Assembly: GCA_038734275.1 (NCBI GenBank)
Contig: JAVYOO010000001.1
Coordinates: 124,001-188,000 of the forward strand
Direction of reading: 5' to 3'
DNA length: 64,000 nt
Origin: Archaeoglobaceae archaeon
Lineage (GTDB): Archaea; Halobacteriota; Archaeoglobi; Archaeoglobales; Archaeoglobaceae
The notes beneath the pieces are model-generated. The model was given only the letters and a program-made list of their open reading frames with translations. It made no database searches and was not told where the DNA came from. How positions within the stretch are numbered: the stretch's first letter is position 1; every line of letters starts with the position of its first letter. This document shows positions 12,095 through 29,742 of this stretch, one piece after another. The position numbers and the translations under genes were made by a program.

Positions 12095-13729
12095 ATGATT
12101 GTCGAAGTCCGAAATCTGGTCAAAAACTACATGCTTAGCAGTGGAAAAACACTAAGAGCTCTTGAAGTAGAGCATTTTGCAGTCGAGAAGGGGGATTTGG
12201 TTGGATTACTTGGCAAAAGCGGTAGCGGAAAAACAACCCTGCTGAGAATTCTCAGAGGTGCGGAGAGTTTTGACGAGGGAGAAGTTTTGATCGATGGGAT
12301 TCGGCTAACTCCTCAATCGAGCAAAGGGGAATTCAGGAGTGTGATGGAGAAAACTGCCATACATCTACAGCGTTCTTTTGGTTTGTGGTCTGAGAAAGTC
12401 ATTGAAAACGTGATTAGAGCCATAGCCTATACCCAATTTGGTGAAGAAATCCTACCAGAATGGGATCCGGTATTGTATGAAGAAATGCAGAGAGAGGCGA
12501 TGAAATTACTGGAAATTGTGGATTTGAAGCATAAAGCGGAGTGCTGGGCTGAGATTCTCAGCGGTGGTGAAAAGCAAAGGTTAATCCTGGCAAGACAAAT
12601 TGCCAAGAAACCGTCAGTTTTGCTTTTAGATGAATTTGGAACCATGACATGTCCCGAAACACGACAAAAGGCGATAGAAATGATTAAAAAAGTGAACAAA
12701 GAGCTTGGAATTACTGTAATTTTCTCTTCTCATATGCCTGAAATTCACAGAGCTCTGGCAAAGAGGGTTGTTTTGATTGAAAGAGGGAAGATCGTTGATG
12801 ATGGAACTCCTGAAGAAATAATTTCGAAATTCCTTTCAGAACTTGAACAACCGATTAACGGTCGGAAGAGGATTGGTGGAGGGGTAGTTCGGCTTGAGAA
12901 TGTCAGAAAGAAGTATTATGTTGTTCCTGGTGGACAGACACTCGATTTGAGAGACGTTTCGATTTCAATTCGAAGGGGCGAAATAGTTGGTTTTATTGGG
13001 AGAAGTGGTAGTGGTAAAACAGTTCTTGCAAGGCTTATTAGTGGGCTTGAACTTCCAGATGAAGGTAGAGTAATGATAAGAACAGAAAGAAAATGGGTTG
13101 ATTTCAGCAAGTTTGGGAGAAAGAACGTTGAGGTCAGGAGAAAGATAGGCATACTGCATCAGGAGTTTGCCTTGCCCTTCTGGGCAAAGGTTAGCGACTT
13201 AATTGCATATAAGATTAGAATAAAAAGAGAAAGTGCTGTTGAAGAAGCAATGAAAAAAGCTGAAGAGCTCGGAATGAGCGAAAGTCTATTCGATGCAATC
13301 TACAGGATGACAGATCTACCCAGAGAGGAGGCAGAAATAAGGTTGAGGAGACTTGGACTGCCGTATGATATTATAAAGGAGCTATTCCCAGAGAGCTCGG
13401 AAGATCTCACAAAGATTTACCCGATTCTTGAGAGGCTTAATCTTCCAGTAGAAATTTTAGATCGGCAAAGTCATGAGCTTTCTGGTGGTGAAGCGGTCCG
13501 TCTTGGTATTGCTTTAGCTTCGATAACAAAACCAAAGATATTAATTCTTGATGAACCCTTCGGAGACATTGATCCGGTAACGCTCAGAAAAGTTGCAAAC
13601 TTCCTAAAGGAAATGAACCTGAAAGACAGAACCACTATAATCGTTATAAGTCATCAGCATGAGCTTGTAAAAGAGCTTGCGGATAGAATAATTCAGGTAG
13701 ACGATGGAAAGGTTCAGGAAGTGAAGTAG
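12095..13729 (+). CDS. component A2 (AtwA) paralogue, double ABC ATPase
   Basis: Soluble ABC protein with two fused nucleotide-binding domains and no membrane helices, 544 residues. Domain 1: Walker A GKSGSGKTT, signature LSGGEKQRLILARQ, Walker B VLLLDEF. Domain 2: Walker A GRSGSGKTV, signature LSGGEAVRLGIALAS, Walker B ILILDEPFGDIDP. It resembles AtwA (29743-31479) along its length but lacks the four-cysteine insertion of that protein, and its first D-loop reads FGTMTCPETR instead of a canonical PTGTLDPE. The true AtwA is the other copy; this one lies with mmp8. It is probably an ATP-driven activator for MCR or another low-potential metal centre. Confidence 0.83.
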   Translation: MIVEVRNLVKNYMLSSGKTLRALEVEHFAVEKGDLVGLLGKSGSGKTTLLRILRGAESFDEGEVLIDGIRLTPQSSKGEFRSVMEKTAIHLQRSFGLWSEKVIENVIRAIAYTQFGEEILPEWDPVLYEEMQREAMKLLEIVDLKHKAECWAEILSGGEKQRLILARQIAKKPSVLLLDEFGTMTCPETRQKAIEMIKKVNKELGITVIFSSHMPEIHRALAKRVVLIERGKIVDDGTPEEIISKFLSELEQPINGRKRIGGGVVRLENVRKKYYVVPGGQTLDLRDVSISIRRGEIVGFIGRSGSGKTVLARLISGLELPDEGRVMIRTERKWVDFSKFGRKNVEVRRKIGILHQEFALPFWAKVSDLIAYKIRIKRESAVEEAMKKAEELGMSESLFDAIYRMTDLPREEAEIRLRRLGLPYDIIKELFPESSEDLTKIYPILERLNLPVEILDRQSHELSGGEAVRLGIALASITKPKILILDEPFGDIDPVTLRKVANFLKEMNLKDRTTIIVISHQHELVKELADRIIQVDDGKVQEVK

Positions 13730-15159
13730 CCCGACTGTAGCTTTATTCTTTCATTGAGCACACATTTGCCGTTTCTTAAGCCTCCAATGGGATTCTTTGG
13801 ATTGCCAAGGGCGTTCATGCACCTTGCCATAACAGCAGCACCCCTTGCTAATCCGTCATCGACGAAAACAATATTTTTTTCAGGCTTTTTATATAATTCA
13901 AGGTCTTTTAGCTCTTCAAGAAAAAGCCATGGTTTCTTTCCTGTTATACCGGCTCTTCCAGTAATTCCAATTGCCATATTTTCCATGAAGAACCCCTCAC
14001 TTTGGATGACTTCAAGTATCCTTCTGAAAATCTTCGCCATTACAACGTCGATCGTTGCAAAGAGCAGGTTTTGATCCCTGATCTCAGCTCCAATCTTTTC
14101 TAACTCATTAAAATTGCTCCCGTTATCGCCCACATCACATCCTACAAGCAAGATCCCTGCATCCTCTGCAGCCCTTGCATTGACAGGTATTTTACCGTAT
14201 CTCTTGCAGTTTGCAGGAACTTTACCTATCCTGATGTGGCGGTGAATCTCTTCTGCAAATTCAAAGGCCTCATCTTTGATGCTGTATTCACATAGCTTAA
14301 GATCGATCGCTGAAACTTCTTTGTTTTTTAGAAATCCCTTGGTTATGACATCAGCTATGGCACCGCCAAGACCGCAAAAGTTGCCTATGGTTCTTGCGTA
14401 AGGCAGATCGTCGTTTGTAATCCTCCCTTTCAGAGTTGTGCCAAAATCCATGGAAATACATGGATTTCTAAAATCAACGTCTGTCCATTTTGCCCCTTCC
14501 TTGATTCCAGCAGTTGATAGCTCACCTTCCATCTCATTTGCTACGATTTCAGCTCCTGTTGAGCCTCTGGGAGGCATAACACCCGCAACGGAACCGTCGA
14601 AAAAGACCTTATCGAGGAGACTGAACTTCCTTATTTTTTCTGGTAAGTTATCCTTTGTAACCGCGGGAACCATCTTGCCTGGCGGAACTCCGGCTAAAAG
14701 GCTTCCATCCGCAAGAGCCTGTATAAAAGTTCCTATATCACTTGGATTTTCAAAATGTGCAACTACTCCAGTAGACCGAACGAGAAAATCAATTTCAGAA
14801 ACGTTTATTCCGGATTTATTGCAAGCTTCCTTTATGGATTCGCTCACGATTTCAGCAATGGATTGCCTTGTAAGCGGGACTCCAAAAATAGTCTCACCAA
14901 AGATGGTCTCACCAAGTCTTGGCTTTCTAACCTCTCGCGTAAGCTTTACAACTTTATTCACGAGGTATGTTTTCCCGCTCGTAAGATCTGTGGCGGTTAT
15001 AATACATTTCGTGGTGGTATTTCCAACTTCAACAGATGCCACGATAAATAACGTTAAACTTCCTGCCTCCATTGAAGCTCCATTGACCTTTCTGTGCAGA
15101 GAGATATATTCACTCTTGGCTATTCGTGGCTTGGAGGATAAAAGAGATAATTTAACCAT
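13714..15159 (-). CDS. methanogenesis marker protein 14
   Basis: A large (481 aa) ASKHA-type ATPase recognised as methanogenesis marker 14. Phosphate-binding strands are visible at VASVEVGNTTTKC near residues 40-52 and CISMDFGTTLKG near 243-255. Glycine motifs such as ITGRAGITG near residue 405 match actin/hexokinase-like ATPases, a fold shared with RACo/RamA corrinoid activators. The ATG at 15159 overlaps the nifB stop and gives an N-terminus of family-like length; an internal ATG at 15072 has a better GGAG site and is an alternative. It is the last gene of the long minus-strand run from mtr through nifB. It meets the A2 paralogue tail to tail with a 16-bp overlap. A role in reductive activation is plausible but unproven. 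Confidence 0.82.
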   Translation of the reverse strand: MVKLSLLSSKPRIAKSEYISLHRKVNGASMEAGSLTLFIVASVEVGNTTTKCIITATDLTSGKTYLVNKVVKLTREVRKPRLGETIFGETIFGVPLTRQSIAEIVSESIKEACNKSGINVSEIDFLVRSTGVVAHFENPSDIGTFIQALADGSLLAGVPPGKMVPAVTKDNLPEKIRKFSLLDKVFFDGSVAGVMPPRGSTGAEIVANEMEGELSTAGIKEGAKWTDVDFRNPCISMDFGTTLKGRITNDDLPYARTIGNFCGLGGAIADVITKGFLKNKEVSAIDLKLCEYSIKDEAFEFAEEIHRHIRIGKVPANCKRYGKIPVNARAAEDAGILLVGCDVGDNGSNFNELEKIGAEIRDQNLLFATIDVVMAKIFRRILEVIQSEGFFMENMAIGITGRAGITGKKPWLFLEELKDLELYKKPEKNIVFVDDGLARGAAVMARCMNALGNPKNPIGGLRNGKCVLNERIKLQSGYFTS

Positions 15160-16018
15160 GGAAGTAGGTGCTACCCACAGCTTTCTCCTTTCCCGGAATT
15201 CCGCATGCGTCAGCCCTGCACTGTCTGCAAAGTCTAAAAACTCTTAAATGCTTTGAAGCAACCTCCCTTGCCTTTTCAAGCTCTTCGCAAGTTGGCTTTC
15301 TCCAGTCCTTAAAGCTGTGGAGCGGGATAAGGGGGATTATATTCATTATAAAAGCTCCTCTTTTCTTAGCCTCAATCGCAATCTTTTCAATCTCGCCTTC
15401 ATTAAGCCCGGGAATTAACACTGTGTTCACCTTCACAGCCATTCCCGCTTCAGCTGAAGCTTTTATTCCTTCAAGCTGTTTCTCGATCAAAAACTTTGCC
15501 CCTTCAACACCACTAAGCCTTTTACCATTGTATTCGACCCATTCATAGATCTTTGCCCCAATCTCTGGATCGAGAGCATTGACTGTCACCGTGACCGTTT
15601 TGACGTTCAATCTCTTAAGCTCTTCAATTTTGTCAGCCAAAAGAAGTCCATTTGTTGCTATGCAGAGAATAAGCTCGGGATATTTTTCGTGAACAAGCTT
15701 GAGAGTCTTAAAGGACTCTTCGTTTGCGAGAACTTCGCCAGGACCAGCAATTCCAACAACCTTAAGCGGATAGTTCTTTCGAGCTTCTTCAACTCTCTTC
15801 AAAGCTTCTTCAGCATTCACAATGCATGCAGAAACTCCCGGGCGATATTCGCATTTGTCAATCTTTCTTGTGCAGTAGCCACACTGGATGTTGCATTTTG
15901 GCGCCACAGGCAGGTGAATTCGTGCAAACTTGAAATGTGCCTCATGGCTGTAGCAGGGGTGAGCAGAGGTCAGATGGGCAAATTTGCTTCCGACTTTGTC
16001 CCACGTCTCTTCTTTCAT
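15152..16018 (-). CDS. nifB: NifB, FeMo-cofactor-type [8Fe-9S-C] cluster synthase
   Basis: A radical SAM enzyme that builds the carbide-centred NifB cofactor (L-cluster) from two [4Fe-4S] units. Diagnostic motifs: HPCYS at residues 20-24, radical SAM CNIQCGYC at 42-49, the ECYRP-like segment (CEYRPGV) near 56, the SAM-binding GIAGPGE near 90, and the C-terminal CRQCRADACG. The length of 288 residues is the stand-alone archaeal form without a NifX domain. No nitrogenase nifHDK genes are in the window; the NifH/NifD homologues here are CfbC/CfbD. The MCR activation complex of Methanococcus has been reported to hold clusters similar to the NifB product, which gives this gene a logical job here. 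It is cotranscribed with DUF169 (5-bp gap) and mmp14. Confidence 0.93.
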   Translation of the reverse strand: MKEETWDKVGSKFAHLTSAHPCYSHEAHFKFARIHLPVAPKCNIQCGYCTRKIDKCEYRPGVSACIVNAEEALKRVEEARKNYPLKVVGIAGPGEVLANEESFKTLKLVHEKYPELILCIATNGLLLADKIEELKRLNVKTVTVTVNALDPEIGAKIYEWVEYNGKRLSGVEGAKFLIEKQLEGIKASAEAGMAVKVNTVLIPGLNEGEIEKIAIEAKKRGAFIMNIIPLIPLHSFKDWRKPTCEELEKAREVASKHLRVFRLCRQCRADACGIPGKEKAVGSTYFHG

Positions 16019-16023
16019 TTCTC

Positions 16024-16758
16024 TCAGCCTTCCTTAGCCTTAAGTGCCTTATAAGCCTTTTTATCTCTTGCACTTGGAATTGCATTCTTTGAGAAGTGCT
16101 TCACGTAGTCTGCAATCTCTTCAAAGAATTTGAATGGAAATCCGAGCAAAGCTTCGTCGTCTGCTATGTCGGTAGCCATTCTACAGCCAAAACAGCCAAA
16201 GCTGAGGTTTATTTTTTGCCTTTTATAGGGAATTGCAGTGCAATCCAAACAAGTTGCTCTCATAACCGCTGTGTTGAGCTCAACTCTTTCGCCCTTAATT
16301 GCGTTAACATAAGCAAGCATGATCCACATTAGCTTCTCAGGCTGGTCTTCAACAATAACAACGTCTGGCTCCATTATTGCGGTTTCAAGCGGGAACAAGT
16401 ATAGGTCCTCAACTTCTCCAGCGGAGAATTTTTCCACATCTCCATAGATCTTTGCTCCAACTTCAGGCTCCTTTGAAATTCCGATCTTGAGCGAATGCTC
16501 TCCAGTCTTAAAACCTTCTGGAAGCTCTTTAAATCCAAATATGTCTGCAGATGCTGCACAACCAATTTCTTCTTTTCCAAGAAGCACATGCTCGCCCTTT
16601 CTTGCCTGCATTAGAGCTTGACAGTATCTGTAGCCCTTTAGCCTTTTGGCATTAACCTCAAGCCTTTTCGGAGAGATTTTAACTCCAACTACATAGCTTT
16701 TCAAACCAAGAATTTCTCTCAGCTCCTTTGCCTTGCTTCTTAGCTCCGCAATCTCCAT
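16024..16758 (-). CDS. DUF169 family protein
   Basis: A 244-residue DUF169 protein, a family common in anaerobic archaea and bacteria and of unknown function. Typical features seen are the N-terminal helical segment followed by VVGVKIS, a YCQALMQAR motif with a conserved cysteine, and C-terminal cysteines in CLDCTAIP and FGCFGCRMATDI. The cysteine pairs suggest metal or iron-sulfur binding. It lies 21 bp after the HdrD-like gene and 5 bp before nifB, in the same direction, so cotranscription is likely. Family members are often found near corrinoid or iron-sulfur enzymes, but I cannot assign a reaction. Confidence 0.82.
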   Translation of the reverse strand: MEIAELRSKAKELREILGLKSYVVGVKISPKRLEVNAKRLKGYRYCQALMQARKGEHVLLGKEEIGCAASADIFGFKELPEGFKTGEHSLKIGISKEPEVGAKIYGDVEKFSAGEVEDLYLFPLETAIMEPDVVIVEDQPEKLMWIMLAYVNAIKGERVELNTAVMRATCLDCTAIPYKRQKINLSFGCFGCRMATDIADDEALLGFPFKFFEEIADYVKHFSKNAIPSARDKKAYKALKAKEG

Positions 16759-16779: not shown

Positions 16780-17946
16780 TTAAGCACAGCGAATGTCATT
16801 GCCTTTATATTCGCCTTTGACTGCAAGGTTGTTAACGACTTCTACGAGATCTACCACCTTTATTGGAATTCCCTGCTCTTCAGCCATCTGCTTGAGATGA
16901 TACTTGCAGAATGGACAGCAGGAAATAAGATACTCTGCGCCAGTTTCCTTTGCCTCCTCAATCCTGTTTTTGCCGATGGCTCCCGCAAGATCCTTGAACT
17001 GCGACTTTACTCCTCCACCAGAACCACAGCAGAACGATTCTCCTCTATTCCTCTCCATTTCAACCAATTCTGCACCTATTGCCTTTATCACTTCTCTTGG
17101 CTCCTCATAAACTTTCGTATGCCTTCCAAGGTGGCATGGATCGTGATACGTCACCTTTGCTGTCAACTTCTGCGGAGTAATCTTTCCCTCTTTTATTAGC
17201 TTGTTCACAAGCTGTGATGTGTGCATAACTTCGAAATTCCACTCCAAGCCAAGCTCCTTTGCGATCTTTGGATAATCTATTAGTATTGTTCTGTAGCATC
17301 CCGCACAGCTTGAAACGATTGTCTTCACACCTCTCTTCTTCCACTCATTATAGTTCTTTTTGAATAACTCGTAAGCCAAATCTCTTTGCCCAGTTCTGAG
17401 GAATGGCGATCCACAGCAATACTCATCCTTGCCCGCATATGCAAATTTAAGCCCCGCTTTATTGAATAAGTCAACAGTGTTCTTTGCAAGCTCAACCGCT
17501 CTGAAGCTTCCTGTGCATCCCGCAAAATACATGATTTCTGCCTTGTCTTCATACTTGTAGCCCTTAATCCACTCCTCTCTCTTTTCTTTTGGCTCTCCGT
17601 AGGGGTTGTCAGTTTTCTGTGCAAGTTCTCTAAGCTTTTTGTGAACTGCAAGTGGTGCAAGTCCTTCTTTAACAAACTCGTGCCTTGCTGCTTCCCAGAG
17701 CTCTACAAGCTTTAGCGCAGTTTGACATTGCTCCTCGCATGCCCCGCAGGTGGTGCACTTGTAAAAGTCTTCTACAAGCTGTGGCTCGAGCTTAATCTTC
17801 TTCTTTAGCAGTCCCTTTAGCATGTAAACTCTTCCTCTTGGCGAAACGCTCTCCCACTTCAATGTTTGAAAAGCTGGACAAACTCTGCAGTAGAAGCACT
17901 GAGCACAAGCTGTTACCATATCGTTTAACTCTTTTTCAAGCTTCAT
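16780..17946 (-). CDS. iron-sulfur protein with two CCG domains (HdrD/GlpC/LldE-like)
   Basis: A 388-residue electron-transfer subunit. The N-terminus has two ferredoxin-type clusters, CAQCFYCRVCP near residues 14-24 and CTTCGACEEQC near 64-74. Two CCG cysteine-rich domains follow (FAGC with DEYCCGSP, and DPCHLG with ESFCCGSGGG), the type that binds the noncubane [4Fe-4S] cluster in HdrD/HdrB. The start overlaps the stop of the FAD-linked oxidase gene by 4 bp, so the two form a complex like archaeal D-lactate dehydrogenase or glycolate oxidase GlcDF. The electron acceptor could be menaquinone or a heterodisulfide-like disulfide; the sequence does not tell. Confidence 0.9.
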   Translation of the reverse strand: MKLEKELNDMVTACAQCFYCRVCPAFQTLKWESVSPRGRVYMLKGLLKKKIKLEPQLVEDFYKCTTCGACEEQCQTALKLVELWEAARHEFVKEGLAPLAVHKKLRELAQKTDNPYGEPKEKREEWIKGYKYEDKAEIMYFAGCTGSFRAVELAKNTVDLFNKAGLKFAYAGKDEYCCGSPFLRTGQRDLAYELFKKNYNEWKKRGVKTIVSSCAGCYRTILIDYPKIAKELGLEWNFEVMHTSQLVNKLIKEGKITPQKLTAKVTYHDPCHLGRHTKVYEEPREVIKAIGAELVEMERNRGESFCCGSGGGVKSQFKDLAGAIGKNRIEEAKETGAEYLISCCPFCKYHLKQMAEEQGIPIKVVDLVEVVNNLAVKGEYKGNDIRCA

Positions 17947-19238
17947 GGGATCACCTTCTGAGCAATTTTCATCATCATAGCCATTGCCCCCTTAGGCAAA
18001 ACTTTACCCGGATTTAGCTGATTTTTCGGATCGACAGTTCTCTTAAATCTCATAATCTCGTCAAGCTCATCTCCAAGCAGAAGCTTTGCCTCAGAACTAA
18101 GATAAAAGCCCGTGGAATAAGGAACACCACGCATTCTTTTCGCAGTCTTCAGAGCTCGGATGCTGTTTAGCCAAGTCATTGTGTAGCCAATGAACTTTCT
18201 CTCGTCGGAGGGTATGAATGTCAGCACCGCCCCTTTCTTACCTTTTGAATACCAGATTTCACTACCATGTGGTTTCTTTATCATCTTGTTAAGCCTGTTG
18301 AGATAAGCGGGAATCGATTCTGCTGGCAGGACGTTCTCAGCAGCAACCAATCCAGGACCAAGTCTTCTAACCCTCATAGGGTAGAATCTCTTTTCCCAGA
18401 TCTCTTCACCAAGGCTTTCGTCTCCGTCAAGCTTTTCTGTCGTTGCTATCATCAAAACATCCTTTTCTGGCATTTCTGTGCCAAAAGCCTCGTTTTTCAG
18501 CTTAACGTAGCCTGCATCGAGGAAAAGACCTGCGTAATGCTCGCCAGCGAAAACGATCTTGTTTGCTTCCTTAGCAGAAACATGGAATCCGTAGTATTTC
18601 ATATCTTCCATTTCCTTAACTTTTACCCATGCCTTCGTTATTAGTCCAGTTATGCCTTCCATTCCGATATAATACTTCAGATCTTTTCCTTCAACCTCTT
18701 TTGCCCCATTGAAGTCAACAATCCTGAGCTTTTCAACATTGTCAGCAATCCCGCCGTATTTGAGGCTTCCAACCCCATAACCGTTTTGAGCGATCCATCC
18801 AGCAACAGTTGAAGAAGGAGCACTTGTTGGATAAACTCTAAGCGTAAGATTTTTCTTGTTCAACTTCTTCTCAATATCCCACCAAACCGCTCCCGGGGAG
18901 CATACAACAATTTGCTTTTCTTCATCAATTTCAAAATCGTCCATCCTCGTGAAATCAATCATTATCGTCTTTCTCTTGGAGAGACGAAACAGTGCTATAT
19001 CTTTTGGGGGTAAAACGCCACCATAACCCGAAGTGCCCGCTCCCCTTGGAACTACCGTTGCTCCCTCCTTTTCAGCGATCCTTAAAACTTCTATTACTTC
19101 TTTTTCGTCTCTTGGCTGGTAGATAACATCAACTTGCTTCAAAAGTAGATTGATCACAGGAGCACTCGAAATGTCTCGAGTATACAGATATCTTTGCAAG
19201 GCCCACTCAGATTTGGGAATTTCCTTAACCTCACTCAT
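17943..19238 (-). CDS. FAD-linked oxidase, D-lactate dehydrogenase/GlcD-like
   Basis: A 431-residue flavoprotein of the VAO/PCMH fold. The FAD-binding domain shows VPRGAGTSGYGG near residue 59 and the PTSAPSSTVAGWIAQNG segment near 140, and the C-terminal cap ends in KRTVDPKNQLNPGK, the FAD-linked oxidase C-terminal motif. It probably oxidises a 2-hydroxy acid such as D-lactate and passes electrons to the CCG protein encoded immediately downstream. It has its own promoter: on the minus strand a TATA-like ACTTATC lies about 30 bp upstream of a GAGGTGAT ribosome binding site, in the 52-bp gap after cfbA. D-lactate growth is a known trait of Archaeoglobus; here the gene sits amid methanogenesis genes. 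Confidence 0.88.
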   Translation of the reverse strand: MSEVKEIPKSEWALQRYLYTRDISSAPVINLLLKQVDVIYQPRDEKEVIEVLRIAEKEGATVVPRGAGTSGYGGVLPPKDIALFRLSKRKTIMIDFTRMDDFEIDEEKQIVVCSPGAVWWDIEKKLNKKNLTLRVYPTSAPSSTVAGWIAQNGYGVGSLKYGGIADNVEKLRIVDFNGAKEVEGKDLKYYIGMEGITGLITKAWVKVKEMEDMKYYGFHVSAKEANKIVFAGEHYAGLFLDAGYVKLKNEAFGTEMPEKDVLMIATTEKLDGDESLGEEIWEKRFYPMRVRRLGPGLVAAENVLPAESIPAYLNRLNKMIKKPHGSEIWYSKGKKGAVLTFIPSDERKFIGYTMTWLNSIRALKTAKRMRGVPYSTGFYLSSEAKLLLGDELDEIMRFKRTVDPKNQLNPGKVLPKGAMAMMMKIAQKVIP

Positions 19239-19290: not shown

Positions 19291-19695
19291 TTACTCCGAA
19301 TTCTCAACCGCTTCCTTCCCCCTTTCAATGAGTATTTCCGCAATTCTATCATCGTAGCCTATGGTTTTTGCATACCATAGCTCAACTTTCACTCCGTTGA
19401 AATCAACTATGCCCTTTCGCATGCCATTTTCAATTCCGAGCTCTCTTGGTATGTCCTCAGTCGTGTGAATGCCGTCAGAAAGAAATACGGGAATAGCTAT
19501 GACCTTTCTATAACCTTTGCTCGCAATCTCGGTCATAGCTTCCCGAATTGTTGGCTTATTGACGTTCATGAAAGCGTAGCATACATCTGCAAAAATTTTT
19601 TTATTCCTTATAGTCTCTGCAAGCCTTTCAATCATTTTTTTCTGAACTTCGAGCTTGCTTCCGTGTCCTATGAGCAAAGCAACAATGTCTTTCAT
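19291..19695 (-). CDS. cfbA: sirohydrochlorin nickelochelatase CfbA
   Basis: A 134-residue small-type CbiX chelatase that inserts Ni2+ into sirohydrochlorin, the first committed step to coenzyme F430 (and can also insert Co2+). Metal-binding histidines are His11 (LLIGHGSK) and His77 (SDGIHTTED), with the FMNVNKPTI segment near residue 42-50. The short form works as a homodimer. It begins 9 bp after the mtrH stop and so is probably the ninth gene of the mtr operon, separate from cfbE-D-B (34.8 kb) and cfbC (45 kb). Confidence 0.92.
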   Translation of the reverse strand: MKDIVALLIGHGSKLEVQKKMIERLAETIRNKKIFADVCYAFMNVNKPTIREAMTEIASKGYRKVIAIPVFLSDGIHTTEDIPRELGIENGMRKGIVDFNGVKVELWYAKTIGYDDRIAEILIERGKEAVENSE

Positions 19696-19704
19696 TCCTG
19701 CACC

Positions 19705-20640
19705 TTACACAAGCCTTTTGATTGGATGGGTCTCGGCTTGCACAGAGATTCCGAGTTCGGAAACAGCTTCTGCCACGATTATGCTGACCATTGCTGTGCT
19801 CGGGAAGATCATTGGTGCATTCTCAATTGGACCATAGAGCAGAAAGTCGGCTCCAAGCATCTGCATGATCAAATTGGAGCCAATGTCTGCTGGTGGAAAT
19901 ACCTCCTTCTTCTCCTTCTTCAGCTTCTTGATCCATGGCCATGCAGAAGGAATATTGTGCGGTGCACCGCCAGCGGGTAATCCAAGTTTTGCCTTGACTG
20001 CCATTACCGCCTTGAAAGTCGCTCCCGCCCCCGCTCCGAGCGGTGTAGCTGCGACGTCGATCAGGATTCTCTTAATTCCGCATTCGTTTGCGATGTCAAG
20101 CAAACCCTTGCTCAATCCTGCACCGCCCTTCTGCAAAATGTCAAGTCTGCCCTTTACCGTGTTGTCAGTCGGGTTGAAAGCAAGAACAATGGCTGAGTCG
20201 ATCTTGCTGTTCTTGAGAGCTTCAACTTCTTGCGGAGTCAAGCTTGGATTTATTGAATTGTAAATCGCTCTTTTGTGAACACCGATTTCAGTTGCAAATT
20301 TGGCTCCATGTATTCTCACATTAGGATCCGTTGAGTCAATAAGGAATGGAGCGTCTGCAATGTTGCTGAACCATTCAATATACTTCTCCATAGCTTCTGC
20401 AGACTCGCCAACGATCTGGAGCATGCATGGGATCCCAGTCAGATCAGAGAATTCCTGTTGCATCTTCCATAGCTCTTCAGCCTTTTGCTTGTCAAATACT
20501 CCCTTGTGGTCATCGCTCACGATCTTGTGCCCCTTATAGAAGATTGTTCCGACAAGCACTGGCGGATATTCGCCCGGCTGACCGCCAACCTTTATCTTTC
20601 CAAATTCAAAAACCTTCTGCTCCTTTTCATATTTGAACAT
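19705..20640 (-). CDS. mtrH: tetrahydromethanopterin S-methyltransferase subunit H
   Basis: Catalytic cytoplasmic subunit of the Mtr complex; it moves the methyl group from methyl-tetrahydromethanopterin to the Co(I) cobamide of MtrA. The protein is a 311-residue TIM barrel related to the pterin-binding domain family (FLIDSTDPNVRIHGAKF and FNPTDNT regions). Full family length. It is the last mtr gene in the canonical order and is followed closely by cfbA. Confidence 0.96.
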   Translation of the reverse strand: MFKYEKEQKVFEFGKIKVGGQPGEYPPVLVGTIFYKGHKIVSDDHKGVFDKQKAEELWKMQQEFSDLTGIPCMLQIVGESAEAMEKYIEWFSNIADAPFLIDSTDPNVRIHGAKFATEIGVHKRAIYNSINPSLTPQEVEALKNSKIDSAIVLAFNPTDNTVKGRLDILQKGGAGLSKGLLDIANECGIKRILIDVAATPLGAGAGATFKAVMAVKAKLGLPAGGAPHNIPSAWPWIKKLKKEKKEVFPPADIGSNLIMQMLGADFLLYGPIENAPMIFPSTAMVSIIVAEAVSELGISVQAETHPIKRLV

Positions 20641-20644
20641 TTTC

Positions 20645-20872
20645 TCACCCCCAAGGTGATTTCAGCAAAAGGTAAATAACTACCAGAATCAGGGCAAAAA
20701 CAAGCCCATAGAGTATTCCTATGTCTCTACCGACTTTCTTTCCAACCTGCTGTGTCACTTCTGCCTGGAAAAATTCTACTTTCTCTTCGACCTTCTTTAT
20801 TCTCTCTAATAGAGCCATGTATTCAGCGGTGTCAACATAAGCTCTCGGAATTTCCTTCTCTTTCTTATCCAT
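20645..20872 (-). CDS. mtrG: tetrahydromethanopterin S-methyltransferase subunit G
   Basis: A small membrane-anchored subunit (75 aa) of the Mtr complex. An amphipathic, coiled-coil-like N-terminal region (LERIKKVEEKVEFFQAEV) leads into a single C-terminal membrane helix (GILYGLVFALILVVIYLLL). It lies 4 bp before mtrH and 6 bp after mtrF, the canonical position. Confidence 0.93.
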   Translation of the reverse strand: MDKKEKEIPRAYVDTAEYMALLERIKKVEEKVEFFQAEVTQQVGKKVGRDIGILYGLVFALILVVIYLLLKSPWG

Positions 20873-20878
20873 TTTCGA

Positions 20879-21079
20879 TCACCCCAGCCAGAGCAATGGG
20901 ATTACAACAAGAAGCACAGCCATCAGGAGTCCAAGAACAAACCCTGTGATTCCTGCCATGTTGATTCCTGACTCGAGCTTCTGAGCTCTTGCAATTAGCT
21001 GTGCACTGTAATCCGTTCTGTTTATAATTTCGTCGATTTTCAAAGCTTTTGGTTTCATGATCTTTGGAAATCCGCTCAT
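20879..21079 (-). CDS. mtrF: tetrahydromethanopterin S-methyltransferase subunit F
   Basis: A 66-residue subunit with one C-terminal membrane helix (FVLGLLMAVLLVVIPLLWL). The ATG at 21079 is chosen over one at 21094 because it follows a strong GGAGGGTGGG site and overlaps the mtrA stop in the usual ATGA arrangement. In some methanogens MtrF resembles the N-terminal part of MtrA-type anchors; here it is the short form. Confidence 0.9.
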   Translation of the reverse strand: MSGFPKIMKPKALKIDEIINRTDYSAQLIARAQKLESGINMAGITGFVLGLLMAVLLVVIPLLWLG

Positions 21080-21804
21080 AAGCCCACCCTCCACATTAAT
21101 AAACCAAGAACAAACATAGCCAGGGTAAATCCAATCCAGAATCCCTGAAATCTGCCCGCATAGACTCCTGCAGAGAACTTGTTTAGCAGAGCAACTTCTT
21201 TGACTTTACCTTCAATGTCTCTTACCCAGGATTCGATGTTTGCAATTTCACCGGGCACTGGGTAAATTTCACCTTCTGCGATCTCTTCTTTTGCCTCCTC
21301 CTTAATTTCCACAACCATTGGTGGTTCAGGATAAGCTCCGGGATCCTTTGAGATACATTCTTTTATCTTTGAGATTATTGCTGAAAGATCTTCGACACCA
21401 ATCATCTCAACGATCTCTACTTGCTTCCTGAATCTCTCTATTGCCTCATTTGGCAAATTTTCAATATACGGTATTGCTCCCTTTGCATCAACGATTCTGT
21501 TGTTCTTTACACCATTTTTGTGTAACTTTACAATTGCATCTCCAGTGAGATGCCCGGTAACTTCAGCTCCGCAGAGGATCAGGAACCTTATGTTTGGATT
21601 TGCAACTATGTTTGCAACCATTTTTTCAATTCCTATGTTCTCTGTTTTGCAGATTCCAGCCATTCCTGCTCCAGCTTCAATGAGCTTCTTTTCATCCAAG
21701 TGGCTTCCAAGAGTTGCTACGACAACACAGCTCTTTGGATCGCCGACCATGTATTCTCCCTTAATCTTCGGCCATCCCGCAGCAGGCTCAACTTTGTTCA
21801 CCAT
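21076..21804 (-). CDS. mtrA: tetrahydromethanopterin S-methyltransferase subunit A (cobamide-binding)
   Basis: A 242-residue subunit that carries the corrinoid prosthetic group whose cobalt shuttles the methyl group to coenzyme M. His85 in EVTGHLTGDA corresponds to the axial cobalt ligand of characterised MtrA. The soluble domain (residues 1-170) precedes a linker and one C-terminal membrane anchor (FWIGFTLAMFVLGLLMW). The longer form with the anchor is typical of the full Mtr complex rather than of the soluble MtrA-like proteins seen in non-methanogens. Confidence 0.96.
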   Translation of the reverse strand: MVNKVEPAAGWPKIKGEYMVGDPKSCVVVATLGSHLDEKKLIEAGAGMAGICKTENIGIEKMVANIVANPNIRFLILCGAEVTGHLTGDAIVKLHKNGVKNNRIVDAKGAIPYIENLPNEAIERFRKQVEIVEMIGVEDLSAIISKIKECISKDPGAYPEPPMVVEIKEEAKEEIAEGEIYPVPGEIANIESWVRDIEGKVKEVALLNKFSAGVYAGRFQGFWIGFTLAMFVLGLLMWRVGL

Positions 21805-21805
21805 A

Positions 21806-22102
21806 TTACATCACCCATGCAATGAGAAATGCGATGATCAACCCAACAATAAGGCCATAGAATACCCCTGTTGTCATGCCAGCATAGTATAGCGTTTTAT
21901 CTCTTCCAGGATATGAGGCTTTGAAGTTCTTCAGTGGATCCAAAGAATTTACGAGATCATCTGCAATCGCTTCGAGCTTCTTCACCGCTTCTTCGACATC
22001 AGACAGCGGGTAGAAGATCAGATCTTCTCTCTCCTCCCCGAGCACACCACGAACCGCGTCGAGCACTAAACCCGGTTCAGAAGAAATTTTTGCGAACGTC
22101 AT
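21806..22102 (-). CDS. mtrB: tetrahydromethanopterin S-methyltransferase subunit B
   Basis: A 98-residue Mtr subunit: a soluble N-terminal part with acidic helices (DVEEAVKKLEAIADDLV) and one C-terminal membrane helix (GVFYGLIVGLIIAFLIAWV). The start overlaps the mtrC stop by 4 bp, and mtrA follows after 1 bp. Confidence 0.93.
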   Translation of the reverse strand: MTFAKISSEPGLVLDAVRGVLGEEREDLIFYPLSDVEEAVKKLEAIADDLVNSLDPLKNFKASYPGRDKTLYYAGMTTGVFYGLIVGLIIAFLIAWVM

Positions 22103-22908
22103 TTATGCTCAACCTCCGGTATAAGTCCTGTGTTGAAAACAATCCCCTCCTCAAACGAGGTTTTCACGAAGATGCTGTAGGTTACGAACCATGCAAGAGT
22201 TCCGAAAAGCAAGGTTACAAATCCTGGTAGCCCTATGAAGTAAAGCGAAGCTATTCCTGCTAAGACCACCTGAGCGCTTCCAGTCGCCAAAGCGAGCTTT
22301 AGAGTTCTTCCTTGCCTTTCGTCCGCTCCAAGACAGGCATTGTATGGGTGAAGAATTCCAAGAGCTCCGACTATAAAGACCATCATTATTATGCCAGTCT
22401 CTGAGATGCTTCTTAAGTGGAAAAGTTCGAATGATCCGGTTATGGTTGTTACATGAGCCAAGATCAGCAAAGCACCCGCTCCGCAGATCTCTGTCATGCA
22501 TCTAACCATTACTGGGATGTTCATCTTCAGAATGTATCTTGCAGAAATGCCTATGAGCAAACCCGTGAGCAATGCAAGGACAAGAGCAACGACAGGTGCA
22601 AGTAGAACGGTTTTACTTGTTAGGTAAATCCCTACAAATACCGCTGCAACCGCACCACCAAGGGCAACCATACCAACCGAAGGGACTCCAGTGCCAATGC
22701 CGTATTTAGCCACAGTTCTTACTCCATTAGCGCCCCAGAGTGTCGCAAGGATTATTGCCACTCCCCCAACGAATGCCAAGAAGTTGAACATCGATGCGAC
22801 ATAGATCCCAGCGAGCGATCCAACGATCCCGAGGACCGCAATAAGGTTGTTTGAGATTTTCTTCTCTTCCACCGCTCCCGCTTTAGCACTGCATGAGGAG
22901 ACGGTCAT
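22099..22908 (-). CDS. mtrC: tetrahydromethanopterin S-methyltransferase subunit C
   Basis: A polytopic core subunit (269 aa) of the Mtr complex. Hydrophobic stretches (about seven) run from residue 18 to near the C-terminus, including NLIAVLGIVGSLAGIYVASM and VVALVLALLTGLLIGIS. MtrC, D and E form the membrane part that couples methyl transfer to Na+ export. The start overlaps the mtrD stop by 4 bp. Confidence 0.95.
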   Translation of the reverse strand: MTVSSCSAKAGAVEEKKISNNLIAVLGIVGSLAGIYVASMFNFLAFVGGVAIILATLWGANGVRTVAKYGIGTGVPSVGMVALGGAVAAVFVGIYLTSKTVLLAPVVALVLALLTGLLIGISARYILKMNIPVMVRCMTEICGAGALLILAHVTTITGSFELFHLRSISETGIIMMVFIVGALGILHPYNACLGADERQGRTLKLALATGSAQVVLAGIASLYFIGLPGFVTLLFGTLAWFVTYSIFVKTSFEEGIVFNTGLIPEVEHK

Positions 22909-23594
22909 AGCTTTACACCTCCAACAGAGCTAAGAACGAGAATTACCGCTATGAAGCCCGAAACGATCAGACTTGAAACAATAGCCTTTGGCAATCTCTT
23001 GAACTTGGGATCATGGAACCCCTCAATTGTTCCCGCAATGTTGTATGCTGCAAGAACCGCATTAGCCAAGAAGAAGCCTATCGCAATGAAAGCTGAAATT
23101 GCTGGCGATATGCCAAGTTCGTTAAGCAACACATAGGTCAAAGCACCTCCAATTCCTCCAAAGAATGCCCCGATGATTCCACTAACGAACGAAACTGTTG
23201 GAACTCCATGTCCTTCTGTGCCTGGAGAAACATAGATGTCCTGTCTGTCTTTTGTTATCGGATCAAACTTAACCTTTGCAGACACTGGCGGAACACCGAC
23301 ACCAAGAATGTAAATGACGTTTCCTATTAGCATCGTAATGCCTAGCATGAGCATGCTTCCGATGGCACCGCTCAACAGAACATAGCTCATTGGAACTCCG
23401 GCGAAGTGATACATGTAGCCCGCGCTAACTAAGCCTGTCAAACCCGCTCCAGTTGCGAGCTGAACCGTTCCTGTTCCAACTCCAGTAGCCATTGCCATCG
23501 CAGCTGGCGCTCCACCGACTGGGATCAAGTGAACACCGATGACGATCAGAATACCCGCAATTATAAGCCCGATAATGATTGTTATTGGATCCAT
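22905..23594 (-). CDS. mtrD: tetrahydromethanopterin S-methyltransferase subunit D
   Basis: A polytopic core subunit (229 aa) with about six membrane helices starting at residue 3 (ITIIIGLIIAGILIVIGVHL). A soluble loop in the middle (KVKFDPITKDRQDIYVSP) faces the cytoplasm. Its start is 2 bp after the mtrE stop. Part of the sodium-translocating membrane module. Confidence 0.95.
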   Translation of the reverse strand: MDPITIIIGLIIAGILIVIGVHLIPVGGAPAAMAMATGVGTGTVQLATGAGLTGLVSAGYMYHFAGVPMSYVLLSGAIGSMLMLGITMLIGNVIYILGVGVPPVSAKVKFDPITKDRQDIYVSPGTEGHGVPTVSFVSGIIGAFFGGIGGALTYVLLNELGISPAISAFIAIGFFLANAVLAAYNIAGTIEGFHDPKFKRLPKAIVSSLIVSGFIAVILVLSSVGGVKL

Positions 23595-23596
23595 CT

Positions 23597-24490
23597 TTAA
23601 GCACCTCCTTCAAGCATTGCAAGCTTCTCAGGATATGGTCCATAATTTTTCCTTGCCCATACTTCGAGAAGCCTATTTGCCACGATCAGCAGTGCAACGA
23701 TCACAAAGCCAGCGATGATTGCCCAGAACGCATCAAAAACGAGTGTTCTCCAGTTATCCAAGAATACGATAAGACCAAACGTTATTCCCGTTGCTGGACC
23801 ACCAAACTTGGCACAGAACCATGCATTGTCTATACTGCTCCTTGTTCCAATTTCTGCTTTGGTAACGATCTTGCCTGAGAGTGCGGCATTCAGACCCGCG
23901 CCGAATGGTTTGTTTTGATACTCTCTCTCAGAACCATAGTGCACGTCTCCAGTGGAGGAACCAATTGCTCCAACCGTTATGCCCCAAATGAATGCAAGCA
24001 ACACAAACGGGAACGGATGCTCAAAGTAAGCCCACAGTATATAAGAGAGCCCGAGAATGCAGAACGTCGCAATAAAGCCATGAGCCATGATTGGCGGTAG
24101 ATGATTGTAGATCACGTCCAAGTAGATTGGTTGTCCATATCTGCGCTGGCTTGCAAGTCTACCCATGTAGGCGGTGCTTGCATAAATTCCATGGAAGATC
24201 GACGCAACAAAGGCTCCAATGGCAAATGCAGCGATTATGTTGAAGTTTGCGTTCATTAAAATCCATGCAACAGTCGCGGCGATGCTCGAGTAGAAGGCAT
24301 AAGCGGGTGGCTCTCCAGAAATTGCTTTGTTGAAAATTCTGTGCAGAACTCCTACCTGTGGAGCTAACTGAACCTGTGAGTTTGGATTGCTCTGAGAACC
24401 GACATCACTTTCAAGATCCTCTGCTGCTCCCGCAATGGTAGCTGCTGCACCCATAAGTGCAACAAGCCCCAATCCCGTGCTTACGTCCAT
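23597..24490 (-). CDS. mtrE: tetrahydromethanopterin S-methyltransferase subunit E
   Basis: First gene of the mtr operon; a polytopic core subunit of 297 residues. MtrE is the subunit for which an intramembrane aspartate has been proposed in Na+ transport. Here the N-terminus (MDVSTGLGLVALMGAAATIAG) is hydrophobic, then an acidic loop (AAEDLESDVG), then about six helices. The ATG at 24490 follows a GGAGGGAT ribosome binding site. The leader upstream carries a strong dyad (separate entry). The order EDCBAFGH is that of methanogens; sulfate-reducing Archaeoglobus lacks the full set. Confidence 0.95.
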   Translation of the reverse strand: MDVSTGLGLVALMGAAATIAGAAEDLESDVGSQSNPNSQVQLAPQVGVLHRIFNKAISGEPPAYAFYSSIAATVAWILMNANFNIIAAFAIGAFVASIFHGIYASTAYMGRLASQRRYGQPIYLDVIYNHLPPIMAHGFIATFCILGLSYILWAYFEHPFPFVLLAFIWGITVGAIGSSTGDVHYGSEREYQNKPFGAGLNAALSGKIVTKAEIGTRSSIDNAWFCAKFGGPATGITFGLIVFLDNWRTLVFDAFWAIIAGFVIVALLIVANRLLEVWARKNYGPYPEKLAMLEGGA

Positions 24491-24664: not shown

Positions 24665-25549
24665 TTAGAAAACTCCTGCAAATTTTACGATCGTGTGTCC
24701 TTCTACCACAGAAGGAAAAACTTCACAAATGTCTCCAAGCTTAAAATCAAGAATTTTTACGTTTTTAATCTTATCTCCAAACTTATCATACGGTAGTTTA
24801 ATTCTGAGGCCGTTGAGCTTAACTGTGATTGGTGCTGGTGAAGTAATCTCGTTTATTTCTGGAATTTGGTTTTCAACTTCGCTTTTTAGATAATACGGCG
24901 GGACTTCAAAGCGATCGAATAGTTTTCTCCTTTTATCGACAATCCTCTCTACAGCTTTTGCAACATTCTCCAAAAGCTCGATATCGCTCTCTTTACTGAA
25001 TTTTCCGACGATTCTACCCAAATTTGGAACGTATTCTATTCCTTCTGGAGCTGTTATCTTTGGGAAACCCGTAGCCACAACGGGAACTGTTATTTCTTTT
25101 AACATTTTAATTTTTTTATTAATACATTCTTTAAAATTTCCAAATAGGAACACTGCCACGTCATGTTCATTTATTAGATCTCTCTCAAATGCGGTAAGCC
25201 TTGCAAGTCTTTTTCCGACACCTCTCGACAAGCCAATCATGTTGGTCTTTGCCCCTTTTCTGCGTAGATATTCCGCTACATCACATGAGTGATGAGGCAA
25301 GTGATAGATCGAAATTGTTGGAACCACTACCGCTATTTCCGAGCCAGCCAAAGGAGCGTTTTTTAGTTCAGCTTTTAATTCTAAAGCTTTCTCCTTTACT
25401 CTATCCAGATCTTCTTCAGGAACGATGAAGAATATTGTTACTTCTGTTTGAGCAAAATTCTTTTGGATTACAAAACCACCAAGGTCATAAACGAGTTCTT
25501 CAAATTCTTGGTGGCCGTAAACACCTCCGTTAAAGATTAGTGGTATCAT
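24665..25549 (-). CDS. methanogenesis marker protein 7
   Basis: A 294-residue protein recognised as methanogenesis marker 7 (Mmp7). The start is set at 25549, where MIPLIFNGGVYGH begins and a GGAGGAG site lies five bases upstream; the 13-residue longer frame to 25588 is unlikely. It overlaps the mmp17 stop by 4 bp. Conserved features include the NGGVY start, the HHSCDVAEYLRRKGAKTNMIGLSRGV-type central block (shown in pieces) and the PVVATGFPK segment. Mmp7 has been purified with McrC, Mmp3, Mmp17 and component A2 in the ATP-dependent MCR activation complex of Methanococcus maripaludis, where clusters resembling the nitrogenase L-cluster carry electrons to F430. Confidence 0.88.
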   Translation of the reverse strand: MIPLIFNGGVYGHQEFEELVYDLGGFVIQKNFAQTEVTIFFIVPEEDLDRVKEKALELKAELKNAPLAGSEIAVVVPTISIYHLPHHSCDVAEYLRRKGAKTNMIGLSRGVGKRLARLTAFERDLINEHDVAVFLFGNFKECINKKIKMLKEITVPVVATGFPKITAPEGIEYVPNLGRIVGKFSKESDIELLENVAKAVERIVDKRRKLFDRFEVPPYYLKSEVENQIPEINEITSPAPITVKLNGLRIKLPYDKFGDKIKNVKILDFKLGDICEVFPSVVEGHTIVKFAGVF

Positions 25550-26100
25550 ATGCTCTCCTCCATCATTCTTATGGCTTTTTCGATCCAATCACTTTTTATA
25601 GGGTCTTCTGACGCAATCACAGCCAGAAGATTATCCTTTCGAATATAACGGCGAATTCTAAACCCTTCGGGAATTATCCGAAGAATTAAATCCATTAAAC
25701 CAGCCATAAGTTCCTTTTCTGGATCATAAACAATTGCGTTGAGAATTTCGTCACTAATTCCATTCCTTACCATGATCTCATATCTACTCAACTGCTCAAC
25801 TTTTTCATTCCCGAATTTTTCCCATAATATCCTCAAGACCTCTGGCATAAATTTATCATTTTCACAAACCGCAATAACACCATCTTTTACGAATTTCAGT
25901 GCGACCGCATCTGAAAATTTAATGACTCCGCTCGACTTAGCGAGCTGTAGGATCAGAATAAAGACAGGTTCTTTGGGGTCCGCATAAACACGCACGCCCT
26001 TTATGGACCCCCTTATCGTTGATTCGCTAAGAACCGTGTTTATAGTCCTCTCGTAAGCGATTCTACCCTCTTCATCAGGCGACTCTACTACTAATCTCAT
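25546..26100 (-). CDS. methanogenesis marker protein 17
   Basis: A 184-residue protein recognised as methanogenesis marker 17 (Mmp17) by position and sequence. The ATG at 26100 (MRLVVESPDEEG) is preferred over 26133 because it has a GGAGGAGAAGG site, even though it overlaps the mmp15 end by 26 bp. No obvious metal motif: only one cysteine (AVCEND). It is a known subunit of the MCR activation complex. Lies between mmp15 and mmp7 in an operon with 4-bp overlaps. Confidence 0.84.
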   Translation of the reverse strand: MRLVVESPDEEGRIAYERTINTVLSESTIRGSIKGVRVYADPKEPVFILILQLAKSSGVIKFSDAVALKFVKDGVIAVCENDKFMPEVLRILWEKFGNEKVEQLSRYEIMVRNGISDEILNAIVYDPEKELMAGLMDLILRIIPEGFRIRRYIRKDNLLAVIASEDPIKSDWIEKAIRMMEESI

Positions 26101-27328
26101 ATCCCTTCTCCTCCCTCGCCCCTGAAGCGACAAAAGCTATTCCAGTGGCGACTGCAAATTGCGAATATTTGGGAACAATTACCTCCATGCCAAGAGCCTC
26201 TCTAACAGCCTTAACAAGCCCTTTAATTAATGAAGTTCCGCCAACTTCTATTATGGGCGCTCTGAGTGTTATTTCTTGAAGCTGTTGCTCAACGATTTGG
26301 TCTATAACACTCCGACATGCTGCAGCGGCAACGTCTTCAGCCTTAGCTCCTCCTGCAAGTGCAGTGGTAAGATCTTGCATTCCGAAGACTATGCAGTAGG
26401 AGTTCATCTTTATTTTTCTGTAATCTCCTCTTGTTGCCATCTCACCGAATTCCATAATATCGACACCAAGTCTTCTTGCAGTTGTCTCCAAAAATCTTCC
26501 AGATGAGCCTGCACAGATTCCACCGAGAGTAAAGCTGTCTGGCAGGCTGTCATGAGCAGTGATTGCCTTGTTATCCATCCCACCGATGTCAAGGATCGTT
26601 GCATCGCCCTTCTGCTTACCTGCAAGGAATGTTGCACCCTTTGCTCCCACAGTTATCTCATCTTGGATTATACCTGCATTTAGATGCTTTCCTATCAAAA
26701 ATCTGCCATAACCAGAAGTTCCAATAACTTCAACTTCTGAAAGCTTAACCCCTGCCATTCTTAGAGCTTCTTCGAGCACTTTGTCTGCGGTCTCTATTAT
26801 GTCAACCGTAGGACGCCAAGCGGCACCAATGATTTCATTATCTCTCATTACCACAACCTTCGTCGTCGTTGATCCTGAATCGACACCAACAGTTAGCCCT
26901 TCATGTTTTGTTCTCGCAAGCAAGTGCTTTCTTCTGACAATATTTACAAGAGCTTCCATTCTGAGCAGGAAATTTCCAGCCTTGCTTCTCTCAGTAAAGG
27001 AATATGCAACAACAGGAATTCGAGCATCCTGAAGATATTTCCTAACCGCGTTTCTAACAAGAGCCCCTTCAGCGCATCTAAAGCATGTTGCAACAAACGC
27101 CGCATCCGCATCACATCGATCTTCAGCAACCGACTTTGCCCTTGCCATCATCAGCTTTAAATCCCCACCTTTCACAATAATCCCAAATTCCTCGTCAACT
27201 TCCTTAACATCCTGAAGATCTGTCTCCGGGATAACGACTTCTCCGCCAACCATTTCAATTGCCCTTTCAATCTCATGGTATACACCGCTGTATTCCGCGC
27301 CGCATGAAATTAAAGCAACTTTTACCAT
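26075..27328 (-). CDS. methanogenesis marker protein 15, BadF/HgdC-type ATPase
   Basis: A 417-residue protein with an N-terminal domain of about 140 residues and a C-terminal ASKHA ATPase of the 2-hydroxyacyl-CoA dehydratase activator family. Phosphate loop VGVDSGSTTTKVVV near residue 146, second loop TILDIGGMDNKAI near 245. Both cysteines that hold the [4Fe-4S] cluster in HgdC-type activators are present (GGICAGSSGRFLE and NSYCIVFGMQD), so it should be able to act as an ATP-driven low-potential electron donor. The N-terminal half has extra cysteines (ATCFRCAEGALVR). It lies in the marker gene cluster next to mmp17, with a 4-bp gap to mmp6/5. Its redox target is not proven. Confidence 0.9.
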   Translation of the reverse strand: MVKVALISCGAEYSGVYHEIERAIEMVGGEVVIPETDLQDVKEVDEEFGIIVKGGDLKLMMARAKSVAEDRCDADAAFVATCFRCAEGALVRNAVRKYLQDARIPVVAYSFTERSKAGNFLLRMEALVNIVRRKHLLARTKHEGLTVGVDSGSTTTKVVVMRDNEIIGAAWRPTVDIIETADKVLEEALRMAGVKLSEVEVIGTSGYGRFLIGKHLNAGIIQDEITVGAKGATFLAGKQKGDATILDIGGMDNKAITAHDSLPDSFTLGGICAGSSGRFLETTARRLGVDIMEFGEMATRGDYRKIKMNSYCIVFGMQDLTTALAGGAKAEDVAAAACRSVIDQIVEQQLQEITLRAPIIEVGGTSLIKGLVKAVREALGMEVIVPKYSQFAVATGIAFVASGAREEKGYEISSRVA

Positions 27329-27332
27329 CTCA

Positions 27333-28112
27333 TCACCCCAAAGTGCTTAAAAATTCATAGATCTTGCCAACAAATTCCTTTGCCTCTTCGTGGGTCTTTG
27401 GAAGGTTAAGCCATACATAAGGAATTTTCTTTGCTTTTATTAAGTAGATCAGAACATCATTATGTGTGCAGCCAGCACAGCCGAATGCGTATTCGTAGTT
27501 GGCAATTATACCTGCCTCAGCATTCTCGATAAGCTCATCCCATACTCCAAGCCTTCCCCTTATGCCAGAAGGCATTTCTATAGATGCATACTTTAGACCT
27601 TTAACCACGTGATCTGTGGTTATGTTTCTCGGTGGTGCATCGATCTCTGGGTTCCTTACGAGCTTTCCGATTTCTGACATCATCGTTAAGGGCTTGTGTC
27701 CACATCTCTCAATTAGATCCGCTAAAATCAGGCTGTTTATAGGATGCACTATAACATTCTTCGGTTTTTTAGCTTTCTCGAATTTAAGATCCTTTATAGC
27801 TTCCGATATGAGCGGTAAAAACTCCAACTCGTATTCAATCTGATAAAAACCTGTTCTCGCTCCCCCTCCGCGTTGGGCTCTGCAGATTCTTTTATCGCCT
27901 ATGGGATAACCTCTCTCCTTGGAAAAGATGTAGTAATATTCTTTTCTTAATGTCTCAGCAATTCTATCAACTTCTCTCTCCTCTCCCTCAACAATTGCTC
28001 CAAAGCATGTCTCCTTGACTGTTCCATCGAAATTCAAATCGAGTATCCTGAAAACGAGTTCTTCGGGGTTCATACCAGCATGGGGAGATAAAACGAGATA
28101 CCGAACTTTCAT
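27333..28112 (-). CDS. methanogenesis marker proteins 6 and 5, fused
   Basis: A 259-residue protein that looks like two marker families joined. Residues 1-110 match methanogenesis marker 6 (LVLSPHAGMNPEEL, KETCFGAIVEGE, CRAQRGGGAR). Residues 120-259 match marker 5 (NVIVHPINSLILADLIERCGH, given here in part, PPRNITTDH, EMPSGIRGRLGVWDELIE, and FGCAGCTHND). The linker is short and lysine-rich (KFEKAKKPK). In many methanogens these are separate neighbouring genes; I see no frameshift here, and a single ATG at 28112 overlapping the mmp3 stop. Family assignment is from memory of the motifs and was not checked by search. Confidence 0.75.
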   Translation of the reverse strand: MKVRYLVLSPHAGMNPEELVFRILDLNFDGTVKETCFGAIVEGEEREVDRIAETLRKEYYYIFSKERGYPIGDKRICRAQRGGGARTGFYQIEYELEFLPLISEAIKDLKFEKAKKPKNVIVHPINSLILADLIERCGHKPLTMMSEIGKLVRNPEIDAPPRNITTDHVVKGLKYASIEMPSGIRGRLGVWDELIENAEAGIIANYEYAFGCAGCTHNDVLIYLIKAKKIPYVWLNLPKTHEEAKEFVGKIYEFLSTLG

Positions 28113-29599: not shown

Positions 29600-29742
29600 C
29601 TCCAGAATCTTTGTAACTTGGTATTTAACCCATTCGATTGTTTCCCTCTCTTTTAAATTTCGATAACTTAAGCGACTGTAAAAATTTAGCAAAAGATAAA
29701 TACTTCCACGTGAATTGAGCCTGGCACTGGGGGTGAAGAAAA

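Follow-up and report, generated by a model that had tools for sequence, protein, structure and literature searches.

Most biological methane is produced or consumed by MCR, and the mode by which its nickel is reduced was long a mystery. In the published structure of the MCR activation complex, three [8Fe-9S-C]-like clusters are proposed on McrC and Mmp7, with C12, H49, C55 and H118 of McrC and H84, C90 and C143 of Mmp7 as ligands; the carbide of these clusters is itself a proposal, with proof pending (PMC12176620). The same study (Nature 2025) describes NifB as essential in methanogens, with or without nitrogenase, and as probably involved in cluster synthesis for MCR activation, and places nifB after an mmp cluster in M. 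marburgensis. Two papers on methane metabolism in Archaeoglobi (PMC7380581, PMC10945360) make no mention of NifB, and literature searches on NifB in connection with either alkyl-coenzyme M reductase or methanogenesis markers gave no matches.

We analysed a 64,000-nucleotide stretch (the window) of Archaeoglobaceae archaeon GCA_038734275.1 (contig JAVYOO010000001.1, forward-strand positions 124,001 to 188,000). We consider it likely, with a probability of about 0.85, that the L-clusters of the MCR activation complex in this nitrogenase-free genome come from NifB, in line with the published proposal for McrC and Mmp7. A sequence-only reading of the window had argued that the placement of nifB supports such a role, and gene neighbourhood, co-loss and co-occurrence across the phylum are all consistent with it. 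The idea is not new, because it is already in print (PMC12176620). What is added here is co-loss within a genus of Archaeoglobaceae, a counted survey of 394 genomes, and two exceptions: a Polytropus-like lineage without NifB and a clade of orphan NifBs.

The window NifB is encoded by an intact ORF with an ATG start. It matches the NifB model TIGR01290 with 296 bits (E 3.7e-88), while the runner-up family, MoaA, reaches 78 bits. The score is below the curated cut-off of 343.65 bits because only positions 7-281 of the 441-position model are matched; stand-alone NifBs match about 275 positions, every Archaeoglobi NifB that we found scores under the cut-off, and the cut-off is a naming threshold rather than a property of the enzyme. 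The protein ends shortly past the CxxCRADA motif and therefore has no NifX-like domain, so the earlier description of a complete, stand-alone nifB is correct.

Among characterized proteins, the nearest is the crystallised NifB of Methanothermobacter thermautotrophicus (PDB 7jmb, 7bi7 and 7jma; phmmer E~1e-99), which is also stand-alone, is about 53% identical and has the same radical SAM motif. Using ligand numbering mapped from MaNifB (PMC7145814), we assigned the CxxxCxxC motif to C42, C46 and C49, and the K1 ligands to C22, H35, C56 and C119, equivalent to MaNifB C30, H43, C63 and C129. Compared with MaNifB C63, its equivalent is shifted by one residue away from the SAM motif. We considered whether this is a damaging displacement and dropped the idea, since the M. 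thermautotrophicus protein has the identical seven-residue step from the third SAM cysteine to the K1 cysteine (C-x6-C..RRPG/YRPG). For K2, the C264/C267 pair matches MaNifB C274/C277. A counterpart of MaNifB C264, ten residues before the pair, is absent from both the window NifB and the crystallised M. thermautotrophicus NifB, and the two proteins share the C244 column. The genomic settings differ: M. thermautotrophicus is recorded among the diazotrophs, with nifDK/EN, whereas the window genome lacks nitrogenase and carries nifB within a block of mtr, cfb and mmp genes.

Absence of nitrogenase was assessed by a genome-wide PF00148 search. The genome (1.73 Mb, 99.46% complete) has a single match, CfbD, and no nifDK/vnf/anf-type or NifEN-type protein, which answers a question that the sequence-only reading had posed for the rest of the genome. 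The NifH and NifD homologues of the window, previously assigned to F430 synthesis, are indeed CfbC and CfbD (Table 1).

Other Archaeoglobaceae do have nitrogenase-like clusters, and their NifBs (e.g. in G036, G040, G042 and G043) are radical SAM proteins of similar length with 46-50% identity to the window NifB. Unlike the window NifB, these are encoded inside nifDK-like clusters in genomes without mcrA, and they have the K1 cysteine moved or missing. The existence of such clusters raises the possibility that the window NifB was left behind by a nitrogenase since lost and no longer does anything important. In a NifB tree, however, the window protein falls in a clade of 12 sequences (support 99/94), 12/12 from mcrA-positive genomes and drawn from the window's genus and from families f26, f29, f31, f36 and f11, while the nif-cluster NifBs of the window's own family form two other clades. 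One genome, G363, has two NifBs (L188, L189), one inside a nitrogenase-like cluster and the other stand-alone and in the mcr-type clade. NifB is under strong constraint: in a comparison of five genes of the block it has the lowest dN (0.04-0.09 versus 0.06-0.23; dS is saturated), and nearly all of its mapped ligands are kept. Within the genus, moreover, NifB is missing where mcr is missing. On constraint and tree, we reject the relic as extremely improbable.

The genes around nifB form a minus-strand run of mmp3, an mmp6/5 fusion, mmp15, mmp17, mmp7, mtrEDCBAFGH, cfbA, glcD, an hdrD/tfrB-like gene, DUF169, nifB and mmp14 (Table 1). DUF169, nifB and mmp14 adjoin one another downstream of mtr and cfbA, as had been noted from the sequence, and their spacing suggests that nifB is co-transcribed with DUF169 and mmp14 in an hdrD-DUF169-nifB-mmp14 type of unit. 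The block from mmp15-17-7 through mtr, cfbA, glcD, hdrD and DUF169 to nifB and mmp14 is kept in relatives of the genus as far as their contigs extend, and the position of nifB next to mmp genes recalls M. marburgensis. McrBDCGA, CfbC, CfbD, CfbB, CfbE and AtwA are all encoded in the same 64-kb window. Independent synteny comes from G076 (family f12), where the order is mcrBDGA-..-atwA-mcrC-..-hdrD-nifB-..-cfbAEDCB.

Table 1. Coordinates of nifB and associated genes in the window.
Feature	Position	Strand	Remarks
Mmp14 (TIGR03285 / DUF2114)	13714..15159	-	8 bp overlap with nifB 3' end
nifB, stand-alone radical SAM NifB, 288 aa	15152..16018	-	ORF, profile match, ligands
DUF169 (PF02596)	16024..16758	-	5 bp upstream of nifB
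TfrB/HdrD-like Fe-S protein	16780..17946	-	
GlcD-like FAD-linked oxidase, partner of HdrD-like gene	17943..19238	-	
CfbA, sirohydrochlorin nickelochelatase	19291..19695	-	
mtrEDCBAFGH operon	19705..24490	-	MtrH by model, rest by gene order
Mmp7, proposed L-cluster carrier of activation complex	24665..25588	-	
Mmp17	25546..26133	-	
Mmp3	28109..29692	-	
AtwA, component A2	29743..31479	+	TIGR03269 741 bits, over cut-off
CfbD, PF00148 nitrogenase fold	36174..37265	+	Over model cut-off
McrC, proposed L-cluster carrier	41521..42144	+	
McrA, presumed end target of activation complex	42946..44613	+	
CfbC, NifH-like	45071..45898	-	NF033200 best model, 291.7 bits, under 402 cut-off

Two other genes of the window should be noted. 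The ORF at 12095-13729 was considered as AtwA and rejected, as it scores 291 bits with TIGR03269, under the cut-off, and the true AtwA is encoded elsewhere (Table 1). It is a second A2-like dual ABC protein adjoining Mmp8, and is kept in genus relatives whose contigs cover the stretch, G051 excepted. At 27333-28112, Mmp6 and Mmp5 are fused in a single ORF, whereas G055 and G056 encode them separately.

The presumed recipients of the cluster keep their proposed ligands. By alignment, the window McrC has equivalents of C12, H49, C55 and H118, and the window Mmp7 has equivalents of H84, C90 and C143, so that 7/7 ligands of the published sites are present. The remaining parts of the activation complex, Mmp3, Mmp17 and AtwA, are also found in the window. 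The sequence-only reading had pointed to reported L-cluster-like clusters in this complex, a statement that stands in the published work (PMC12176620). As we infer the cluster chemistry and the transfer route to McrC and Mmp7, NifB, which is predicted to be active, would fuse two [4Fe-4S] clusters and insert a SAM-derived carbide to give the [8Fe-9S-C] L-cluster (NifB-co). Without nitrogenase, the L-cluster would most likely go to the three sites on McrC and Mmp7, and the activation complex (McrC and Mmp7 with Mmp17, Mmp3 and AtwA) would pass low-potential electrons to the Ni-F430 of MCR.

We used the distribution of NifB to further examine its link to mcr. Among 59 Archaeoglobi genomes, NifB is found in 14, mcrA in 7 and PF00148 proteins in 20. 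All five mcrA-positive genomes of the window's genus have NifB, CfbD and Mmp7 and lack nitrogenase, and four others of the genus (G047, G048, G049 and G054; 78-99% complete) have no mcrA, NifB, CfbD, Mmp7 or McrC. Another genome, G050 (73% complete), has NifB and CfbD with no mcrA detected. Elsewhere in the class, eight NifB-positive genomes carry nitrogenase-like PF00148 genes and no mcrA. NifB occurs in 1/40 Archaeoglobi with neither mcrA nor nitrogenase-like genes versus 5/5 with canonical mcrA; because the genomes are related, a p value for this comparison is only a guide.

The phylum sample of 394 genomes, in which counts ignore phylogeny, shows the same pattern. It includes 217 genomes with mcrA and 252 with NifB (both, 207; mcrA only, 10; NifB only, 45; neither, 132), so NifB is present in 207/217 mcrA-positive genomes versus 45/177 without mcrA, and in 178/182 mcrA-positive genomes that are >=90% complete. 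Leaving out nitrogenase-bearing genomes (PF00148 at E<=1e-30), NifB is found in 65 of 72 genomes with mcrA versus 23 of 149 without. About half of these 23 belong to mcrA-bearing families, and their missing mcrA likely reflects genome incompleteness; the remaining ten are the orphan NifB group discussed below. The comparison of nifB with mcr that the sequence-only reading had suggested across archaea gives co-occurrence in this phylum sample, and Mmp7 and McrC were compared in subsets of genomes. Two further well-sampled mcrA-positive genomes without NifB, G109 and G342, probably reflect assembly gaps, since relatives in the same families have NifB and G342 has nitrogenase genes. An Mmp7 search of genome contigs gave no match recognisable as a Thermoproteota or Asgard alkyl-CoM reductase genome. 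That NifB is gained or lost together with mcr, and is kept in a nitrogenase-free genome, favours a role of the nitrogenase cluster core in MCR activation, possibly as its first use.

Co-occurrence by itself cannot tell MCR activation from another mcr-linked use of the cluster, since CfbD, an enzyme of F430 synthesis, co-occurs with mcr too. The cluster could instead serve CfbCD in F430 synthesis, or else the neighbouring set of GlcD, HdrD and DUF169: nifB is close to cfbA in the window and to cfbAEDCB in G076, both have an HdrD-like gene next to nifB, and the NifB-linked DUF169 has extra cysteine residues. Against this, CfbD is stated to have no [8Fe-9S-C] cluster (PMC12176620), and G055 has CfbD and no NifB. 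DUF169 is a widespread multicopy family that several genomes with NifB and mcrA lack. The ligands of a solved cluster site are found in McrC and Mmp7. We therefore judge a different mcr-linked step to be improbable and favour supply to the activation complex.

Two groups of genomes speak against a simple rule: Polytropus-like Archaeoglobi that keep Mmp7, and in one case McrC, with no detectable NifB, and archaea whose orphan NifBs are accompanied by no mcrA, McrC or Mmp7 and no strong nitrogenase match. The first group comprises G055 and G056 (95% and 99% complete; G056 is S009_4), each with two divergent McrA. G055 is the JdFR-42 bin, which we take to be Ca. Polytropus marinifundus; the published completeness of this MAG is 99.84%. 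Mmp7 with its ligands is kept in both genomes, McrC with its ligands is found in G055, and Mmp7/17 are retained at L055 (G055 C29) and L057 (G056 C63). NifB was not detected in either genome, the best radical SAM matches having E-values of 1.8e-4 and 2.8e-6.

The second group consists of 10 NifB-bearing genomes of families f8, f14 and f18, in which we detected no mcrA, no McrC or Mmp7 (E<=0.01) and no PF00148 protein (E<=1e-30). The nine orphan sequences in the tree form a single clade spanning the three families (100/100) and keep the HPC, H35, SAM and CxxC motifs; the clade includes loci L170-L177 (G063, G072, G090, G104, G081, G110, G115 and G130). In f14 and f18, the orphan nifB adjoins Rad50- and Mre11-like genes, and in f14 also HerA/NurA. 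Such NifBs suggest that NifB may have several clients, with MCR activation just one, and that a further [8Fe-9S-C] protein might exist in the window genome too. For the window genome we think this quite unlikely: each NifB-positive genome of the window's class has mcrA, nitrogenase-like genes or, in G050, CfbD, so that no additional client has to be invoked. For archaea more broadly, we tentatively raise the possibility, while thinking it the less likely case, that, besides nitrogenase-like enzymes and MCR activation, one or more other clients receive [8Fe-9S-C] clusters made by NifB, that Polytropus-like archaea with alkyl-CoM reductase fill the McrC/Mmp7 sites without NifB, and that the coupling between source and client is looser than in the published model. 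The NifB-less lineage and the orphan clade offer direct tests of a strict need for NifB and of other clients, respectively.

We also examined the genes immediately upstream of nifB. DUF169 was considered as a general partner of NifB and rejected: it is multicopy, occurs in 56/75 genomes tested, both among those that have mcr or NifB and among those that do not, and is missing from several genomes that have NifB and mcrA. Within the genus, the NifB-linked DUF169 orthologues have six invariant cysteines. C173 of the window copy is found in 0/19 other copies aligned and C192 in 2/19, and together they give two CxxC motifs; this DUF169 is a possible cluster-handling accessory. In other methanogens, DUF169 lies between cfb and mcr in G059 (L230) and beside atwA in G102 (L231). 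Two lineages, G076 (L187, 8213-9517) and that of the window (16780-17946), have an HdrD-like Fe-S gene next to or close to nifB, and its product could possibly act as an electron donor.
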